Positions 10,769-19,397 of a stretch of DNA of 64,000 nucleotides are shown here, piece after piece (positions within the stretch are counted from its first letter, which is position 1; each line of letters opens with the position of its first letter). The notes below the pieces were generated by a model. That model had not been told where the DNA came from, ran no database searches, and saw only the letters and a list, made by a program, of their open reading frames with translations. Source of the DNA: Anaerolineales bacterium (lineage in GTDB: Bacteria; Chloroflexota; Anaerolineae; Anaerolineales; DRMV01); contig JALVVL010000039.1 of the NCBI GenBank assembly GCA_027023425.1, positions 1 to 64,000 of the forward strand. The letters are read 5' to 3'. The translations under genes were made by a program, and so were the position numbers.

Positions 10769-11212
10769 CTACTTGGTTGTTAGAACGGGTTGTGCTCTTG
10801 ATGCAAGAGTTTCCCTTGCTAATTGCCCGATGCTTACGCTGCGGAGCTCTTTTCTGATGACGGCGCGCAGCCTTGCCCAGCGTTTCCTCACTGGGCAATC
10901 GTGGCTCAGCGGGCAAAAATCTGGGTCGTCAATGCAAGGCGAAATTTCTATGGGTTCTTCACAGGCTTCAACGACGTCTAACAGAGTGATGCTGTCGGCG
11001 TCTTTGGCGAGTTCAAGCCCGCCTTTGGCCCCCCGCCGTGAGCGCACCAAGCCGGCGCGCGATAGATCTGCTACAATCCGCTTTACAAAGGCCAACGGTA
11101 TGAGCATTTCATCAGCAGTTTCTTGCATAGAACGTTTGCCTTCCCCTTGGTGAGTGGCTAAACTCACCAATACCCTTACGGCATAATCGGTACGCCTGCT
11201 GATTCTTAACAT
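10769..11212 (-). CDS. Rrf2-family regulator with Fe-S-type cysteines
   Basis: 147 residues. The winged helix (RISRRTDYAVRVLVSLAT at the N-terminus, MQETADEMLIPLAFVKRI, wing RRGAKGGLELAK) is typical of Rrf2/IscR/NsrR. Cysteines 93, 100 and 106 form C-x6-C-x5-C, matching the [Fe-S] cluster ligands of sensor-type members. Members with this cluster sense O2, NO or Fe-S status. Its position directly upstream of cydAB suggests control of the bd oxidase by O2 or NO, which is inference. A palindrome overlapping its promoter suggests autoregulation. Confidence 0.9.
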   Translation of the reverse strand: MLRISRRTDYAVRVLVSLATHQGEGKRSMQETADEMLIPLAFVKRIVADLSRAGLVRSRRGAKGGLELAKDADSITLLDVVEACEEPIEISPCIDDPDFCPLSHDCPVRKRWARLRAVIRKELRSVSIGQLARETLASRAQPVLTTK

Positions 11213-11289: not shown

Positions 11290-11675
11290 GGTATTTGTTG
11301 CTTTTAGATGGTGTAAAAGGCGCCAAGGGGTTAACGCCAAGGGTAACGCAGAGACGCAGAGGAAACAGAGGCGCAGAGGAACGCAGAGGTGCCAAGGACG
11401 CCAAGAGGTTAACGCAGAGGCGCAGAGAAACGCAGAGACGCAAAGAAAAAATTCTGTGTTCTCTGTAAATTTCTGTGTCCTCTGTGGTTTTTCTACCCTG
11501 CCCACAAAGCAACGACCCAACGACCCAACGACCCAACGACTCAACGACTCAACGCCCTAATCCCTCAGTACCTCAATCCCTCTCCCTCTCTGTGTTCTCT
11601 GTAAATTTCTGTGCTTTCTGTGGTTTTCTTTCTCAATCGGTGTAAATCTGTGCCAATCTGTGGATACCTCCCCCC
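11290..11675. repeat. Mosaic intergenic repeat block
   Basis: Contains 'GGCGCCAAGGGGTTAACGCCAAGGG', 'CGCAGAGACGCAGAGGAAACAGAGG', 'TCTGTGTTCTCTGTAAATTTC', a run of 'ACGACCCA' octamer-like units (about 11510-11560) and 'AATCGGTGTAAATCTGTG'. No gene is visible. Short frames through it are repeat translations. Confidence 0.9.
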
Positions 11676-12698
11676 TCAGCGCTCGGCGCATTTAGGCCTG
11701 AGCACGGCCTCAAGCACCGGCCTCATTTCCGGAATCCAGCGTTTGTTTATCGGGTCGTAGAACTTGGTGTCAGAGTTTACTGCAAAGGGGATATGCGCCG
11801 CGTCCAGTTGGCAGGCCACAAAGGTGGCAAATTGCACTTGTTCGGGGATGGAGTAGTGGTTGCCGTGGTTGTAATCGCCGGGCATCCATGCACCGACCCA
11901 GGTGTAAATGCCGGTTTCTTTTTGCCATGCCAGAGCGGCTTCTATCTTTTTTGTGATGAGCGCTTTTTCGGCCGGAGTTCCCACAGTCCATTGCTTTTTG
12001 GGGTTGGTTTTGGAGGGGCCTGCGGCGTAAAAGTGCCATTCGGCCATCAAATAGCCGTTTGCTTGGCTGGGGATGCGGAGTTCGTGTAGCAGTTCTGGGT
12101 CTGAGCGACGCCGCGGGGAGATGAAGATTATGCGCGTCGGGTTGGTTTTTCGGATTTCGGCCACCGCGGCTTCGTATAGCCTGTTCAGCGTCTCGGGTTG
12201 GCGGCTTAGGGCATCGGTCACTTCAATTATGAGGTCAAACGAAAGTTCGGGAGGGGCGTTTTGGTAGTGCTTGGCTACCGTTCCCCACCACCATACCACT
12301 TTTTGGAAGTTCTTTTCGTTAGGGTTCTCTTTGAAATCTTCTGCTTTGTAGGCCAAAACAGGGATTAGGCCGGCGTTGAGCGTGTCAGTTATTACTCTGT
12401 CCAAGTGTTTGAGTAGTTCTGGGCTGGGGTCGTCTTTCACGCGGATGCGAACGTGCGAGAAGCCGATTTGCTTTATGGCTTTCACTTCTTCAGGGGAGTA
12501 AAGAGCCATTCTTTTGGGGAAGTGTACCCAGTCCACGTCCAAGCCTTTTCCGAGCATGCGGGCGTAGCGCGCCGGCGGAATTGCGGTTTGGGTTTGTTTT
12601 GGGGCGGTTGGGCTTGGCTGTGTTTTGCCTTGGCATGACACTGCCAGCAATGTTATTGCCGCCACGGCCGCGATTGCAAATATCTTTTTGAATTTCAT
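11676..12698 (-). CDS. GH5-like (cellulase-fold) lipoprotein, catalytic glutamates not seen
   Basis: 340 residues. Signal peptide with lipobox LAVSC, Pro/Thr-rich linker, then a TIM-barrel-like region similar in order to glycoside hydrolase family 5: GKGLDVDW, FSHVRIRV, GLIPVLAY, DLIIEVTDA, AAVAEIRKTNPTRIIFISP and YTWVGAWMPGDYNHG. GH5 enzymes carry the acid/base Glu in N-E-P after strand 4 and the nucleophile Glu in a G-E-W/F motif at strand 7. Here these positions read VTDA and GAW. It may therefore be a non-catalytic or divergent carbohydrate-binding protein. Start ATG 12698 begins the signal peptide with GGAG upstream; a longer frame is repeat-derived. It stands alone between repeat blocks. 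Confidence 0.75.
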   Translation of the reverse strand: MKFKKIFAIAAVAAITLLAVSCQGKTQPSPTAPKQTQTAIPPARYARMLGKGLDVDWVHFPKRMALYSPEEVKAIKQIGFSHVRIRVKDDPSPELLKHLDRVITDTLNAGLIPVLAYKAEDFKENPNEKNFQKVVWWWGTVAKHYQNAPPELSFDLIIEVTDALSRQPETLNRLYEAAVAEIRKTNPTRIIFISPRRRSDPELLHELRIPSQANGYLMAEWHFYAAGPSKTNPKKQWTVGTPAEKALITKKIEAALAWQKETGIYTWVGAWMPGDYNHGNHYSIPEQVQFATFVACQLDAAHIPFAVNSDTKFYDPINKRWIPEMRPVLEAVLRPKCAER

Positions 12699-12744
12699 CT
12701 TTGTGCTCCAAAAACTGCGCGGCGAGCAATAAGAGAGCGTCAAA

Positions 12745-12818
12745 TTGTCAACCGTCGCAACGACCCAACGACCCAACGACCTAACGACCCAACGACTAAC
12801 GACCTAACGCCTATTTTA
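12745..12818. repeat. 'ACGACCCA' microsatellite-like run
   Basis: Successive CGCAACGACC / CAACGACC / TAACGACC units of about 8-10 bp, imperfect. The same unit type occurs at about 11510-11560, 20480-20530, 26100-26135, 27915-27965, 29515-29550 and 31985-32045. Confidence 0.85.
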
Positions 12819-12823
12819 CAACC

Positions 12824-13618
12824 TCACCCCCCCACGGCCGTGTAATGCCTTAGGCCGTAGCGCCACGCTGCGGCTGCGAGCGCGCCCCATCCCCCTAACG
12901 CAAGCGCACCGGCTGCCAGCCTTGGGAGCGCCGGCCATCCTAACAGCACAGCGGTGGGAAAATTGGCTATCACGAGCACCGGCACCCCAAAAGTGAACAG
13001 CGCCCGCGCCGCGCCTCGGAAAATCCCTTCTGGGTAGCCCGAGAGGTTGAACATTTCCGACAGGAGCGCCGGTAGGGCGTAAATGCGCGTTAGCCAGAAT
13101 GCGAGCGAAACCGCGCTCAGCGTAATTGCAAAGCGCGCGGCTATCCCCACGGCTAAGAGCATTCCAAACCACAGCCATTGCGCCGGTGTGGGGTGTAAGT
13201 TCAGCGCTCGCATGGCGTACCATCCCAATGCTAAGGGGAGCAGGAGGGCGGGCGCGTCGTATGGCCGCATTCGGCTCACGGCCACGTTGAACAGTGGCGA
13301 GATTGGTTTTGTCAGCACGCCGTCCAGTTTGCCCTGCCATATCAGGTTTGGAATGCGCCCGATTCCTCCGCCTACGGACATGCGGTAAAGTTGTTGCGCC
13401 AGTTCGTTGACGGCGATGAGCAGCCACACCTGCCCGCGCTTCCAGCCGCCGATGCTCGGCACGTGCAGGAACAAAGTTTCAAAAAAGACCAAAGCCGTGC
13501 CCAGCCACAAGGCTTGACCGAGCAAGCGCACCCACGCGTTGCCGCGAAAGATGCTCTCCCTGCCGAGCGATATTTTCAACCATTGCAGCCAAATGTGCAG
13601 GTAGCGCTTGATTTGCAT
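12824..13618 (-). CDS. ABC-2 type exporter permease (second subunit)
   Basis: 264 residues with about six hydrophobic helices; starts MQIKRYLHIWLQWLKISL. It resembles the COG3694/COG4587 permeases that pair with a COG4586 ATPase. Start ATG 13618 is chosen because GGAGGG precedes it and the preceding gene stops only 2 bp upstream. A longer frame running from 14218 is antisense-like shadow of the first permease. It is the last gene of the exporter operon; the substrate is unknown. Confidence 0.85.
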   Translation of the reverse strand: MQIKRYLHIWLQWLKISLGRESIFRGNAWVRLLGQALWLGTALVFFETLFLHVPSIGGWKRGQVWLLIAVNELAQQLYRMSVGGGIGRIPNLIWQGKLDGVLTKPISPLFNVAVSRMRPYDAPALLLPLALGWYAMRALNLHPTPAQWLWFGMLLAVGIAARFAITLSAVSLAFWLTRIYALPALLSEMFNLSGYPEGIFRGAARALFTFGVPVLVIANFPTAVLLGWPALPRLAAGALALGGWGALAAAAWRYGLRHYTAVGG

Positions 13619-13620
13619 TT

Positions 13621-14421
13621 TTACCCTCCTACGGCTCGGAAGCGCCGCAATCCCATCCGCCATATCCATGCGTTCAACGCCCACAGCGCGGCAATCCACG
13701 CCGCTTGCTCGGCCAAACCCGCCGCGATGGCTTTGCCGCCCACCATTCCCAAATACACTTGCGCGGGGAAGAAGAGTATTTTGGCAAAAGGGAGCATTTC
13801 TAACGCCGCGGCTATTGGTTTTGGGAACAACGAAAGCGGTAAAACTGCCCCGGCCGCAAGTGGGATTACATAATCGGCGATGAGCGCCACGCCATCGGTT
13901 TCCTCCAGCCAAAACGCGCTGAGGCTCAGCAGGAAGGTGAGTTGGTATCCTAACACCATGCTTAGGAGCGCGCTTGCTCCAAAGCCCAGCCACGCGAGCG
14001 CCGAGGGCGGCCAAGCCCAACTTTGGCCTATGCTCAGGGCAAACGGCGCTACGACGCCCAATCCGATAATGCCGTATGGCAGTTTGCTGCCGAGAATTAC
14101 GGCGAAATGGTAGAGGCCGTAGTTCTGCGGGCGGAGGAGGTGGAAGACCAAATCGCCCTCGCGGATTTCGGAGGTTATGTCCCACCAAACTGTCGGCGCG
14201 GCGATTTCGTATAGCCACCTTGTAACTATGAAGTAAGTGAGAACCTCGCCGCGCCCCATCCCTGCGATTTTTTCGCCAGCGCCAACCACCTTATCCCACA
14301 GCAAGAGCATAGCAATTAGCGGCACGGCGCCCACCACGAAACTCAAGATGTGGTTCAGGCGGTAAGAAGCGGCTTCGCGCACCGCCAGCCAAGTTACCAA
14401 CGCATATTTACGCCAGTGCAT
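13621..14421 (-). CDS. ABC-2 type exporter permease (first subunit, DUF990-like)
   Basis: 266 residues with about six helices. The segment EIREGDLVFHLLRPQNYGLYHFAVILG is typical of the ABC-2 permeases that accompany COG4586 ATPases. Start ATG 14421 (MHWRKYALVTWLAVREA) has GGAGGGG five bases upstream; it overlaps the 3' end of the ATPase gene by 14 bp, indicating translational coupling. A further upstream ATG at 14445 lacks a ribosome site. Confidence 0.87.
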   Translation of the reverse strand: MHWRKYALVTWLAVREAASYRLNHILSFVVGAVPLIAMLLLWDKVVGAGEKIAGMGRGEVLTYFIVTRWLYEIAAPTVWWDITSEIREGDLVFHLLRPQNYGLYHFAVILGSKLPYGIIGLGVVAPFALSIGQSWAWPPSALAWLGFGASALLSMVLGYQLTFLLSLSAFWLEETDGVALIADYVIPLAAGAVLPLSLFPKPIAAALEMLPFAKILFFPAQVYLGMVGGKAIAAGLAEQAAWIAALWALNAWIWRMGLRRFRAVGG

Positions 14422-15409
14422 TTTCCCCTCCGGCTTGCTTTTCAAAGAAGCGGCGCATTATGTCCTCCAGCGCTGGCTCGCGCACCGTCAAGTCTTCAAT
14501 TTCGCACTGTGCCGTGAGCGCTTGCAACAGGCGAGGGACTTCGGCGCGCGGCACTTGCCAGCGCCGCCTTAGGCCGTCTGCCCCCACCAGCCAGTTTTGC
14601 CCGGGCAGGTCGCACCGAGTGGGGGAGTGGCCTTTCAGGGTGGCGGTAATTTCGCGCATCGGAGAATAGCGCTTTTTCAATTCGCTCAGACTGCCGTCGT
14701 ACTTGATTTGCCCTTCATCCAGCAAAATGACCCGGTCGCAAATTTCTTCCACATCCCGCATGTAGTGGCTTGCCATGAGCAGGGTTATTCCTTCTTCCTT
14801 TGTGTAAGCGCGCAACAGCGACCGGATTTCGTGCTGTGCCATCACGTCCAGCCCCAGCGTCGGCTCATCCAAAAACACCACCTGCGGGCGATGTAGGAAC
14901 GCCGCTATCAGTTCCATTTTCATCCGTTCGCCTAAAGAAAGGTTGCGGATGGGAGTGGTGAGCAGGTTGCCCACCCTAAAGCGTTCTGCCAGTTCGTTTA
15001 CCCGTTTTTGGAAATCGCTTTGGGGAATTTCATACATTTCTTGGAGCAAGTGGAACAAATCCATTGCGGGAAGGTCCCACCAAAGTTGGCCTTTGCGCCC
15101 CATCACAAGGGCGATGCGCTTTTTGAATTGAGCACGTCCTTCCCACGGGGTGAAGCCCAGCACTTTGACCTCGCCCGAATCGGGGAAAAGCACGCCCGCG
15201 AGGATCTTGAGGGTGGTGGTTTTGCCCGCGCCGTTTGGGCCCAAATAGCCCACGGCTTCACCGGCTTGAAGGGTGAAGGAAACGTTTTTCAAGGCGTGGA
15301 CTGTGCGGTAGCGCGGCGCAACTAAATGGCGCAAGGTCGCTTTTATCCCCGGCGAGCGCAACGGAGAGCGGTAGGTTTTGTTGAGGTTGTGAACCGAAAT
15401 TGTTGGCAT
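14408..15409 (-). CDS. ABC exporter ATPase (COG4586 type)
   Basis: 333 residues. Walker A GPNGAGKTTTLKI, Q-loop VMGRKGQLWWDL (a tryptophan-rich Q-loop region characteristic of the COG4586 group), signature LSLGERMKMEL, Walker B VVFLDEPTLGLD and switch His in MASHYMRD. An accessory C-terminal domain follows residue ~240. Start ATG 15409 has GGAGG nine bases upstream. It heads the three-gene exporter operon (12824-15409). The leader upstream carries a promoter, a short ORF and a terminator. Substrate unknown; related systems are often linked to antibiotics, peptides or lipids. Confidence 0.92.
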   Translation of the reverse strand: MPTISVHNLNKTYRSPLRSPGIKATLRHLVAPRYRTVHALKNVSFTLQAGEAVGYLGPNGAGKTTTLKILAGVLFPDSGEVKVLGFTPWEGRAQFKKRIALVMGRKGQLWWDLPAMDLFHLLQEMYEIPQSDFQKRVNELAERFRVGNLLTTPIRNLSLGERMKMELIAAFLHRPQVVFLDEPTLGLDVMAQHEIRSLLRAYTKEEGITLLMASHYMRDVEEICDRVILLDEGQIKYDGSLSELKKRYSPMREITATLKGHSPTRCDLPGQNWLVGADGLRRRWQVPRAEVPRLLQALTAQCEIEDLTVREPALEDIMRRFFEKQAGGENALA

Positions 15410-15431
15410 GGCTTTATCCTCCGCGGGGTGT

Positions 15432-15467
15432 TTAAATCAAAAGCGCCCTCCTTAGAAGCGAGGGCGC
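15432..15467 (-). terminator. Leader terminator (candidate attenuator) of the exporter operon
   Basis: GCGCCCTC (15467-15460) pairs with GAGGGCGC (15450-15443), followed by TTTTGATTT. It lies only ~35 bp before the ATPase ATG and downstream of a promoter and short ORF. Its 3' arm, GGAGGGC, is also complementary to GCCCTCC inside the leader ORF (15553-15547), so an alternative antiterminator fold is possible. Confidence 0.7.
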
Positions 15468-15508
15468 CCGTTTGGCGTTAGTAGGGATGCAGAAATGGCA
15501 ATAGAGAA

Positions 15509-15565
15509 TCAGAGTTTCATCTTTTCACTTTCCCAAACGGACGCATGGAGGGCTTGGTAGGTCAT
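15509..15565 (-). CDS. Leader peptide ORF, 18 codons
   Basis: ATG at 15565 with AGGA seven bases upstream encodes MTYQALHASVWESEKMKL and ends in TGA at 15511-15509. It sits about 30 bp after a consensus -10 and about 42 bp before the terminator stem. I recognise no known leader peptide in it. Its value as a gene rests on the arrangement promoter / SD-ATG / stop / terminator / exporter; position and base pairing suggest translation-dependent attenuation. Confidence 0.5.
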   Translation of the reverse strand: MTYQALHASVWESEKMKL

Positions 15566-15594
15566 TGTTTTTCCTGTATCAGGGGGGTGGTGAA

Positions 15595-15623
15595 ATGATA
15601 ACTGAAATAATGAAAGCGGTCAA
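15595..15623 (-). promoter_or_regulatory. Promoter of the exporter leader
   Basis: TTGACC (15623-15618) - 17 bp - TATCAT (15600-15595), about 30 bp before the leader ORF and 185 bp before the ATPase. Confidence 0.75.
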
Positions 15624-15627
15624 GATT

Positions 15628-15663
15628 CCGTAGCGGGGCTAAGCGCGCTCTGCCCCGCTACGG
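15628..15663 (-). terminator. Hairpin after pstS
   Basis: CCGTAGCGGGG pairs perfectly with CCCCGCTACGG (11 bp). It starts 18 bp after the pstS stop. There is no U-run, so termination would be inefficient or factor-assisted. Confidence 0.5.
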
Positions 15664-15680
15664 CGTTTATGTTTGCTGGC

Positions 15681-16775
15681 TTACGGCCACACTTTTTGGC
15701 CGTTGCATTCCACTTCGTGGAGTTTGGCAAGCACTTTATCGCGCACTTGAGGCGGCAGGGGGGCGTAGCCGAGCGAAGTGGCCTTTTGGGCGGCCGCTGG
15801 GTCGGTCAGCGCCCAGCGGATGAAATCCACCAGTGCCTTAGTTTTGGCGCAGTTTTTGTTGTTTTTCATGTGGATGATGAGGTAGGTGTAGCCCATTATT
15901 GGCCATGAGTCTTTGCCCGGCGCGTTGACAATCTTGGCGGTTAGGTGTTCGTCAAAGGCGTTGGCAAACGCCGCCATTGCGGCTTGCATGGTTTTGGTGT
16001 TGGCCTCTACCACGTTGCCCGCGGCGTTCACCAATTTTGCCATTGGGATTTTGTTGCTTTTCGCGTAGGCCAGTTCCACATAGCCGATGCTGTAAGGCGT
16101 GGATTGCACGGCCTGAGCGACGCCGGGGTTGCCTTTGCCGCCGATTCCGTGCCCAGCCGCGTCCGCAGGCCATTCTACCGCTTTGCCTACCCCTACCTTT
16201 TGCGCCCAAGTTGGGTCAACCGCGGCAAGGTAGGAGGTGAAAATCTCGGTTGTGCCCGAGCCGTCCGAGCGATGAACCACGGTTATGGTTTCATCGGGAA
16301 GGCTGAGGTTGGGGTTCAGTTTGGCTATTGCCGGGTCGTTCCATTTGGTGATCTTGCCCATGAAGATGCCCACCATGCTTGGGCCATCTAACACCAATTC
16401 TTTTGCGTTTGGGAGGTTGTAGATCGGCACGACCGCCCCAGCGAGAATCGGCAACATTTGCAAGTCGGGCATTTTCTTGTATTGGGCTTCGCTCAGCAAT
16501 GAATCCGAGCCGGCGAAATCAACCGTGCCGTCCATGATTGCTTTTTGTCCGCCGCCGGAGCCTATGCCCTGGTAGTTGATGGTCACATCGGGCTTGACGG
16601 ATTTGTACATTTGTATCCATTCGTTGTAGACCGGCAGCGGGAAGGTTGCACCTGCTCCATTGAGCACTATTGGCCCTGCCTGCCCGCCGTTGCCTGCTTG
16701 TTCGCTTCCGCCGCAGGCGGTTGCCATGAGGGCGAGAACTAACAATGAAACCGCGAGCATTATGGTTTTGCGCAT
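15681..16775 (-). CDS. pstS: Phosphate ABC transporter substrate-binding lipoprotein
   Basis: 364 residues. Signal peptide with lipobox MATAC, Gly-rich linker, then the PstS fold: LNGAGATFPLPVYNEW, INYQGIGSGGG, DFAGSDSLLS, the phosphate-binding VVHRSDGSGTTEIFTSYL, and YVELAYAKSN. It binds phosphate outside the membrane for PstCAB, which are not in the window, so the gene is split from its transporter. Start ATG 16775 follows GGAGGAAAC; a longer frame upstream lacks a signal peptide. A consensus promoter lies ~95 bp upstream; I found no certain Pho box. Confidence 0.95.
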   Translation of the reverse strand: MRKTIMLAVSLLVLALMATACGGSEQAGNGGQAGPIVLNGAGATFPLPVYNEWIQMYKSVKPDVTINYQGIGSGGGQKAIMDGTVDFAGSDSLLSEAQYKKMPDLQMLPILAGAVVPIYNLPNAKELVLDGPSMVGIFMGKITKWNDPAIAKLNPNLSLPDETITVVHRSDGSGTTEIFTSYLAAVDPTWAQKVGVGKAVEWPADAAGHGIGGKGNPGVAQAVQSTPYSIGYVELAYAKSNKIPMAKLVNAAGNVVEANTKTMQAAMAAFANAFDEHLTAKIVNAPGKDSWPIMGYTYLIIHMKNNKNCAKTKALVDFIRWALTDPAAAQKATSLGYAPLPPQVRDKVLAKLHEVECNGQKVWP

Positions 16776-16869
16776 TGTTTCCTCCAAATTGGTAGCGCGC
16801 TTTTTGAGCGCCGGGCTTTGGGAGGTGCTGTTTTGCCTCCACGTTTTGGGGATGACCTCCTGTGCGGCA

Positions 16870-16898
16870 AGTATAATGTGCGGATTGGGGGTAGTCAA
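16870..16898 (-). promoter_or_regulatory. Promoter of pstS
   Basis: TTGACT (16898-16893) - 17 bp - TATACT (16875-16870). The ~90 nt leader contains GGAGGT...GCACCTCC complementary segments. Confidence 0.75.
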
Positions 16899-16949
16899 GC
16901 CGCACACTGAAGCGTACTCGCGGCTGAAAGGGGAATTGCTTCGCCTTCT

Positions 16950-17036
16950 TTCGCAGGCGGTGGGCTGCCGTTTGCGCCCCGGCGACTGAAGTCGCGGGCT
17001 ATAAGTTGCGAAGTCCACTCGTGTGGACTTTTGCTC
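16950..17036. repeat. Dispersed hairpin repeat 'GCGACT-GAAGTCGC / AGTCCAC-GTGGACT'
   Basis: Two small perfect hairpins, GCGACTGAAGTCGC (about 16982-16995) and AAGTCCACTCGTGTGGACTT (about 17011-17030). Related text occurs at 41135-41290. It directly follows the stop of the metal ATPase gene and could act as its 3' end. Confidence 0.7.
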
Positions 17037-19397
17037 TCAATGATCGGTGCCTGCCGCCGCGGTGGTCAAGTCCTTGGAGTAGGGCTTGGGGGGCGGTTCT
17101 TTGTAGTTCAACAGCCGCAGGCCGTTGAGCACCACCAGCACGGTGCTCCCCTCGTGGCCGACCACGCCCCACGGCAGGGTAAGCCCTGCGCCAAACGCCG
17201 AGGCAACGAGGAGCACAATCACGCCCATCGCGAACGTGAGGTTTTGCCACACTACGCGGCGGGCTTTGCGCGCCAGCCCAATTGCGTAAGGCAGGTGGTG
17301 TAGGTTGTCGGCCATCAGCACCACATCGGCGGTTTCCAGTGCCACGTCGGTGCCTGCGCCGCCCATTGCAATGCCCACATCGGCTAAAGCCAGCGCGGGG
17401 GCGTCGTTCACGCCGTCGCCGACCATTGCAGTCGCGCCGTATTGCTTTTGCAGGCGCTCCAGCACGCGCACTTTGTCGCGCGGCAGGAGTTCAGCGTAAA
17501 ACTCATCCACGCCCACCTTGGCGGCAATTGCCGCGGCGACCTGCTCATTATCGCCGGTGAGCATGACCACGTGCTTGATGCCAAGAGCGTGCAGTTTGGC
17601 GACCACATCGGCGGCTTCGGGACGCAACGAATCGGCAACCGCCAGCAAGCCCAGCCATTGCTCACGCTCTGGGCGGTACGCGGCGACCACCGTTTGCCCT
17701 TGCGCCTCCAGCGATGCCATCTTTTCCTGCAAATCCGCGGGGATGGGCACGTTGCGCTCGGCAAACATTCGCTCATTGCCCACCCACAGCGGTTCGTCTT
17801 CCACTTTGCCCTGCACACCCTGCCCAACCACAGCGCGGAAATCCGAAGATGGGGGAATTTCCAGCCCGTGCTTTTTCGCGGCGTGCACCAAAGCGCGCGC
17901 AATCGGATGCTCCGAGCGGGCTTCCAGCGCGGCGACAAGGCGTAGCAGGTCGTTTTCGTCAACGCCGTTGGCGGGGTAAACGCCTTGCACGGAAGGCTCG
18001 CCCACGGTGAGCGTGCCGGTTTTGTCAAAGGCGACCACTTCCAGCGCCGCGGTGCGCTCCAGATGCGCGCCGCCTTTGAAGAGCACGCCCTTGCGCGCGC
18101 CGTTGGCAATTGCCGAAAGGATGGTAGCGGGCGTGGAAATCACCAAAGCGCAGGGCGAAGCCACCACCAGCCACGTCATCGCGCGGTAGAACGCCCTGCC
18201 AAAAGGCTCACCTAACGCTAACGGCGGCACCGCGGCAAGCAACACCGCGCCGCCGAGCACAAATTTGGCATACTTGCGCTCAAAATTTTCCAGCGCGCGC
18301 TGGGTTTTTGCCTTTGCCTCCTGCGCCTCTTCCACCATTTGCACGATTTTGGCAAGGGTGGTTTCCTGCGCGAGGTGGGTGACGCGCACCTCCACCGCGC
18401 CGGTGGCGTTGACCGTCGCGGCAAACACCTTATCGCCGGGCTCTTTGAGCACGGGCACTGATTCGCCGGTGATGGGCGATTGGTCAACCTCGGTTACACC
18501 TGCGACCACCTCGCCGTCAATCGGAAAACGCTCGCCCGGGCGCACGAGTACCACATCGCCCAGCCGCAGTTTTTCCACCGGCACGGTTTCCCATTCTCCA
18601 TTTTCGGCTTTGCGGGTGGCGACCGGCGGGCGCAAATCCATCAGGCTTTCAATGGCGCGGCGGGTGCGCCCAAGGGCGTAGGATTGCAGGGTGTTGGAAA
18701 GCGAAAAGAGAAAAAGGAGCACCGCGCCGTCGGCGGGTTGCCCCACCAAAGCCGCTCCCAGCGCGGCAAACACCATTAGCAGGTCAACATCAATTTCGCG
18801 CTCGGTGATGAGCAGTTCTACACCTTCAATAAGGCCGAAATAGCCGCCCGCGGCGTAGGCGAGCACAAACAGCGTCGCCGAAAGCCACGGCGGCGCGGCG
18901 AGGTGCTCCGCGGCGACCGCCCCCAGCAGGGAAATGAGCGTGACTGCGGTGAGGATGACCTCCCAAGTGATTTTGCTCCAGCCGCGGCGGGCGGAGGTTG
19001 CTTTTGGCGGAGGGGCGATTTCGGCGGCTGCGGTGGCTTTGAGCGGTGCACGCACCGGCAGGCGTGCCGCTAACACGCCGTTTTCAAGCACAACTTTGGG
19101 CGGGCGCCCAAAAAAGCGAGTGAGGTCTTCGGTAAGGTGCGCGGCGCACTGCGAGCATGCTTTTGTGCCTGCAAAGGGGCAGTGCTGAACGCGCTCCCAA
19201 GCGCGGTGCGCCGCCTCTTCGGCAATTTCCTGTGCCTGCGCGTCTTCCAACACCCGTGGGTCATAAGTGATTTGGAAGCGCGCCTCGTTGTAGTCCAAGC
19301 GGGCTTCAAGCACGCCGTCGTAGCCAATGAGGGTATCGCCAACGACGTCGGTACAGCGCCCGTGTGGAGGTTTGTGGTCGTGGTTATCCGCGGCCAT
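17037..19397 (-). CDS. P1B-4-type heavy-metal ATPase, probable Fe(II)/Co/Zn efflux pump
   Basis: 786 residues. A His/Cys-containing N-terminus (NHDHKPPHGRC, CSQC) precedes the P-type core. SPC in VVASPCALVISTP (near residue 414) and HEGST in GVVGHEGSTVLVV are the P1B-4 signatures, distinct from CPC of Cu/Zn pumps. The phosphorylation motif is DKTGTLTVG (near 456), and TGES and GDGVNDAPAL are present. P1B-4 pumps export Co2+, Zn2+ or Fe2+; those next to PerR (PfeT/FrvA) export Fe2+. The 14-bp overlap with the PerR-like gene makes the iron role the best inference. Start ATG 19397; the open frame upstream is a shadow of the regulator. Confidence 0.9.
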   Translation of the reverse strand: MAADNHDHKPPHGRCTDVVGDTLIGYDGVLEARLDYNEARFQITYDPRVLEDAQAQEIAEEAAHRAWERVQHCPFAGTKACSQCAAHLTEDLTRFFGRPPKVVLENGVLAARLPVRAPLKATAAAEIAPPPKATSARRGWSKITWEVILTAVTLISLLGAVAAEHLAAPPWLSATLFVLAYAAGGYFGLIEGVELLITEREIDVDLLMVFAALGAALVGQPADGAVLLFLFSLSNTLQSYALGRTRRAIESLMDLRPPVATRKAENGEWETVPVEKLRLGDVVLVRPGERFPIDGEVVAGVTEVDQSPITGESVPVLKEPGDKVFAATVNATGAVEVRVTHLAQETTLAKIVQMVEEAQEAKAKTQRALENFERKYAKFVLGGAVLLAAVPPLALGEPFGRAFYRAMTWLVVASPCALVISTPATILSAIANGARKGVLFKGGAHLERTAALEVVAFDKTGTLTVGEPSVQGVYPANGVDENDLLRLVAALEARSEHPIARALVHAAKKHGLEIPPSSDFRAVVGQGVQGKVEDEPLWVGNERMFAERNVPIPADLQEKMASLEAQGQTVVAAYRPEREQWLGLLAVADSLRPEAADVVAKLHALGIKHVVMLTGDNEQVAAAIAAKVGVDEFYAELLPRDKVRVLERLQKQYGATAMVGDGVNDAPALALADVGIAMGGAGTDVALETADVVLMADNLHHLPYAIGLARKARRVVWQNLTFAMGVIVLLVASAFGAGLTLPWGVVGHEGSTVLVVLNGLRLLNYKEPPPKPYSKDLTTAAAGTDH

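Follow-up and report, generated by a model that had tools for sequence, protein, structure and literature searches.

The closest described system is the bmrB-bmrCD locus of Bacillus subtilis, where ribosome-mediated transcriptional attenuation of a multidrug ABC transporter was shown experimentally and where read-through into the exporter rises in the presence of lincomycin and other ribosome inhibitors (PMC4191407). The bmrB terminator lies inside a 162-nt ORF, its antiterminator is weaker than the terminator, and an anti-antiterminator has been predicted; peptide-specific stalling is described for the ermC leader (PMC4191407).

The locus analyzed here lies in a 64,000-nt stretch of DNA (the window, meaning this whole stretch) from an uncultured Anaerolineales family known here only from metagenome assemblies. 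It resembles bmrB-bmrCD in that a small ORF precedes an ABC exporter, an intrinsic terminator is present, and an antiterminator draws upon the ORF sequence. The predicted logic is also alike, with efficient leader translation giving termination and slowed translation giving read-through. Unlike in bmrB, the terminator lies outside the ORF, beginning about 41 nt 3' of its stop; of the two competing folds the antiterminator, which engages both arms of the terminator, is predicted to be the more stable, and the leader folds showed no anti-antiterminator. The exporter is an ABC-2 ATPase with two PF06182 permeases, and the likeness of the two leaders is one of architecture.

With trpL of E. coli the window leader shares a leader ORF, an exclusive antiterminator and terminator, and a ribosome whose position decides between them. 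In trp attenuation, absent translation leads to super-attenuation. The window leader, in contrast, has no run of codons for a single amino acid and no 1:2 hairpin; lacking this hairpin, it is predicted to allow read-through, not super-attenuation, when translation is absent. Leaders of erm, cat and ABC-F (vmlR) genes are similar in that the ribosome is the sensor and a resistance-type gene lies downstream. Peptide-specific stalling in erm and cat leaders chiefly governs the SD, whereas the target in the window is a transcription terminator and the peptide looks unconstrained.

Anatomy and conservation of the leader

The leader and the operon behind it comprise the following features; promoter, leader SD and terminator were read from the sequence, the helix strands from folding and six-genome pairing, and the exporter genes from Pfam.

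15595-15623, minus strand: leader promoter, TTGACC-N17-TATCAT
15571-15577, minus strand: SD of the leader ORF, ACAGGAA
15509-15565, minus strand: leader ORF MTYQALHASVWESEKMKL, 18 codons plus TGA, with its ATG at 15565 and its end at 15509
15547-15553, minus strand: 5' strand of the antiterminator outer helix, GCCCUCC, codons 5-7
15533-15544, minus strand: 5' strand of the antiterminator inner helix, GCGUCCGUUUGG, codons 8-11
15464-15475, minus strand: 3' strand of the inner helix, CCAAACGGGCGC, the final 4 nt of which open the terminator 5' arm
15434-15467, minus strand: intrinsic terminator, GCGCCCTC-N9-GAGGGCGC plus TTTTGATTT, with all paired cells kept in six genomes
15445-15451, minus strand: 3' strand of the outer helix, GGAGGGC, within the terminator 3' arm
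14408-15409, minus strand: exporter ATPase, ABC_tran (PF00005), with the SD GCGGAGGA upstream
13621-14421, minus strand: exporter permease 1, ABC2_membrane_6 (PF06182, E 5e-21)
12824-13618, minus strand: exporter permease 2, ABC2_membrane_6 (PF06182, E 4e-37)

Promoter, SD, 18-codon ORF and terminator were all found on the minus strand where the first-pass annotation had placed them. That annotation had also set the terminator some 25 bp before the exporter ribosome site; the location holds, and the distance from the hairpin to the exporter SD GCGGAGGA (about 15424-15417) is shorter, at about 20 nt, with about 25 nt separating the terminator end from the ATPase start codon. The combination TTGACC/TATCAT at N17 spacing occurs exactly once in the whole 64-kb window, and the number of promoter-like sites in 12800-17050 is by itself not above chance. 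Transcription is predicted to start ~25-30 nt 5' of the leader ORF. Between pstS and the leader promoter lies an inverted repeat (CCGTAGCGGGGC...GCCCCGCTACGG, 15628-15663) that occurs only once in the genome when up to 3 mismatches are allowed and carries no T run on the pstS strand.

The three exporter genes overlap or nearly touch. The NCBIfam matches listed are all below their cutoffs, a sequence search with permease 2 found no relative of solved structure, and a search of the literature on PF06182/COG4586 substrates found nothing useful. A possible viologen-exporter link for this family plays no part in our reading. Elsewhere in the window, two arrays of the 8-bp unit CAACGACC (11510-11554 and 12758-12813) flank a cellulase-like ORF (11676-12776), and degenerate repeats of about 17-19 bp (AACGCAGAGGCGCAGAGG type, 11345-11485) lie upstream of an Rrf2-like ORF (10769-11212; assigned by eye).

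The exporter ATPase is present in 6 of the 18 family genomes searched, the window's included, and the other five are 65-70% identical to it. The homologous operons (window, G003, G004, G008, G014 and G015) were aligned as the first-pass annotation had proposed, and SD, start codon, ORF core, exclusive pairing and terminator recur in all six, with SD, start codon, short ORF and terminator placed directly upstream of the exporter in each. From the start codon to codon 10 the leader alignment is gap-free. An SD-like AGG or GAGG occupies the same position throughout, and the distance from start codon to inner helix is identical although codons 2-4 have diverged. Because the start codon is held in exact register in 6/6 genomes while the columns around it vary, the leader ORF looks translated. 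The promoter takes the form TTGACC-N17-TATnAn in G008, G003 and G004, TTGCCA-N17-TAAACT in G015, and an extended -10, TGG-TATAAT, in G014. At the sequence level, an intrinsic terminator stands before the first structural gene and the leader has its own promoter.

The stop codon is missing in one leader only. This leader, from G004 (L056:3069-4217), has a GTG start and one broken inner pair, and its ORF continues in frame through the terminator into an intact exporter ATPase. Decay, constitutive expression or an assembly error could account for it; alternatively, it may be a natural loss-of-switch variant.

The gene upstream of the leader differs in all six genomes. It is pstS in the window only; in the other five it is a thioesterase, superoxide dismutase, FtsH, an iron-dependent repressor or prolyl oligopeptidase, all divergently oriented. 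The leader thus travels with the exporter and not with pstS. A CM of the leader matches once in each of the six genomes (E 1e-23 to 1e-28), far above the next match. Its search of the family, of 400 genomes sampled from the order and of 301 from the phylum turned up no other convincing site. Weak matches in G013 and G373 look like coding sequence on inspection, and those in G006, G009, G228, G306 and G353 were taken as chance on score. Upstream of order-level exporters (36-54% identity) the leader was not found by eye, terminator scan or CM, and Rfam gave no match to it down to E = 1. Judged by these comparisons, the leader is a real, conserved and previously unlisted cis-regulatory RNA.

Alternative folds of the leader RNA

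The inner helix, GCGUCCGUUUGG:CCAAACGGGCGC, comprises 12 bp and is enclosed by the outer helix across a 2-nt joint, so that the nested antiterminator is modeled to capture both arms of the terminator. The first-pass annotation had recognized the pairing GCCCTCC:GGAGGGC and the two exclusive folds it permits; that pairing is real, but the fold drawn from it was incomplete, as the 12-bp GCGUCCGUUUGG:CCAAACGGGCGC helix had been overlooked. With its 5' strands inside the ORF and exclusive with the terminator, the two-helix antiterminator is the MFE fold of all six leaders, lying 2.1-5.7 kcal/mol below the best terminator-containing fold at equilibrium. The inner helix is predicted to form before the terminator 3' arm is transcribed and could therefore seed transfer of that arm to the outer strand. 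Inner helix and terminator overlap by four bases only, so the bulk of the inner helix is compatible with a formed terminator, and true exclusivity is limited to the outer helix (3' arm) and about 4 inner bp. A fast local terminator hairpin may win kinetically, even without a ribosome.

Pairing is kept across divergence, as in GCGUCCG:CGGGCGC (window), GCGUUCG:CGGACGC (G008) and GCGCUCG:CGAGCGC (G015). Across the six leaders, 93% of antiterminator cells are paired, versus 40-61% with a slid partner, and three inner-helix pairs have changed on both sides with pairing kept. The G008 terminator has A in place of G in its 5' arm and, compensating for it, U in place of C in its 3' arm; the new 5' arm base remains able to pair with the leader U. 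Covariation is modest, since only six sequences are available, two of them (G003 and G004) close, and the arms under a three-way matching constraint hardly vary. The window's leader:terminator duplex is stronger than every one of 1000 dinucleotide shuffles, and each of the five homologs exceeds 984 or more of its 1000. When random synonymous codons serve as the control, significance holds for the window, G014 and G015, is borderline for G003 and G004, and is lacking for G008. Whole-leader MFE z-scores are modest (-0.9 to -4.0 in the six leaders) because GC-rich sequence folds anyway, and for this reason the specific duplex test was used.

Within codons 5-10 the leaders differ by GTC/GCC, CAG/CAT/CAA, TCC/TTC/CTC and GTT/GTC, and several of these changes are nonsynonymous. 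Those at paired positions keep the pair; CAG/CAT/CAA sits in the unpaired joint. The silent changes in the peptide that had been expected at the outset were thus not what was found, as GCG TCC/TTC/CTC GTY alters the peptide while keeping the RNA pairs. Beyond codon 10, no conservation of the leader ORF was detected among the six genomes. Conservation of the peptide beyond the needs of the RNA, of the ermC type, is consequently absent from both the core, with its nonsynonymous changes, and the C-terminal part. Selection appears, from these substitutions, to act on RNA pairing rather than on a stalling peptide. Given that core changes track base pairing and not amino acids, the leader peptide is probably not the sensor; ribosome presence, rather than the peptide product, likely is.

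The proposed switch and its rivals

We consider it likely that the leader is a ribosome-mediated transcription attenuator of the three-gene ABC-2 exporter operon, with poor leader translation turning the exporter on. Ribosome-dependent attenuation had been suggested from the window alone, and it draws support from the recurrence of its parts in six genomes and from predicted switching. When a ribosome footprint, modeled as a mask of 15 nt either side of the P site, is placed on codons 1-12, the prediction goes to the terminator at nearly all positions in all six leaders. Without a ribosome, or with one close to the stop of a longer ORF, five of the six leaders retain the antiterminator; in G015 the ribosome-free prediction varies with the length of 5' sequence included. 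Occupancy is thus predicted to switch the folds, and from the masks on codons 1-12 we infer that steady translation would give termination and poor loading read-through.

The proposed sequence of events is as follows. RNA polymerase would start about 25 nt 5' of the ORF and then transcribe the intrinsic terminator. Were codons 1-12 free of ribosomes when the terminator is made, codons 8-11 would zip with the strand that overlaps the terminator 5' arm, placing codons 5-7 beside the 3' arm as it emerges, so that they would capture this arm as well. With both arms captured, the terminator would be blocked and the exporter operon transcribed. Ribosomes that load and translate the ORF normally would melt the antiterminator, the terminator would form and transcription would stop. 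The switch would therefore read lost leader translation, whether through ribosome inhibition, an initiation block or starvation, and answer by making the exporter. The G008 ORF has 12 codons and its stop falls directly after the antiterminator strand; in that leader, unlike in the window's, a ribosome held at the stop would keep the antiterminator from forming. In its strictest form, which we advance only tentatively, the leader would sense the absence of ribosomes: codons 5-11 would supply both 5' strands, neither an anti-antiterminator nor a peptide code would be involved, and a block of initiation would turn the exporter on.

The same parts could also serve a leader in which, as in ermC leaders, a drug or metabolite acting through the nascent peptide arrests the ribosome at one particular leader codon and the stalled ribosome selects the antiterminator. 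The core peptide does look conserved (VLQASV / ALHASV / ALQALV), a mask at about codon 16 or later leaves the antiterminator intact in most leaders, and in four of the six the stop lies 19-25 nt 3' of the 10-bp inner helix core, where a waiting ribosome would spare the antiterminator, a point that also counts against our preferred reading. However, the substitutions V/A, Q/H and S/L/F change core residues and keep the RNA pairs, the codons after 10 are not conserved, and a ribosome on codons 1-12 is predicted to favor the terminator, which is the wrong sign for activation by stalling at those positions; we regard this explanation as unlikely. The selection on pairing that weakens it would equally suit an RNA in which a small molecule or RNA-binding protein decides between the folds and the ORF is incidental, as would the G004 leader with its GTG start and no stop. 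Such independence from translation is nevertheless quite improbable, given that start codon and SD keep their register in 6/6 leaders while neighboring columns vary, that neither an aptamer-like conserved junction nor an Rfam match was found, and that a transcript starting about 25-30 nt before the ORF has no room for an upstream sensor domain.

That the hairpin is a mere 3' terminator of pstS, with the ORF there by chance, is scarcely credible. In the window pstS does end upstream on the same strand, but five genomes with different, divergent upstream genes keep leader and terminator, and this synteny refutes the explanation; moreover, a perfect 12-bp inverted repeat belonging to pstS itself (15628-15663) precedes the leader promoter. 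The concern raised in the first-pass annotation, that the terminator might belong only to pstS read-through, is thereby answered in favor of a link to the exporter.

A second leader unit and implications for the exporter family

In six genomes of one genus in another Anaerolineales family (f9, g13; G096, G062, G110, G050, G073 and G025, loci L058-L063; L020:2637-2823, L021:2613-2803), exporter ATPases 41-43% identical to that of the window are preceded by a second unit with a promoter, SD, short ORF ending LPPEAGL or QPPEAAY, and terminator. A CCTCC segment of its ORF is complementary to the ORF's own SD, and the stop codon lies within a small, varying hairpin. The unit resembles the window leader in its promoter, SD, short ORF with a CCTCC element, terminator and related exporter, but no sequence homology is evident between the two, and pairing of the ORF with its own SD sets the second unit apart. 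Another promoter-like site separates its terminator from the exporter, so control of the exporter by this unit is only a possibility. If it does control the exporter, regulation by a leader ORF would have arisen at least twice in this exporter family.

The window leader, for its part, would extend ribosome-coupled exporter attenuation to the Anaerolineales; the kind is known, and the lineage and exact design are new. A full-text literature search found no ribosome-coupled exporter attenuation described in Anaerolineales. The design is compact, as one short ORF would disarm both halves of the terminator. Its apparent reading of translation suggests that these ABC-2 exporters may handle compounds that harm the ribosome. 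If the leader does sense the absence of ribosomes, it would be, as far as the literature searched shows, the first ribosome-coupled exporter attenuator described in the Chloroflexota, and the cargo of this uncharacterized exporter family would then be suspected to be a translation inhibitor. For such an orphan exporter, regulation is one of the few clues to what it carries.
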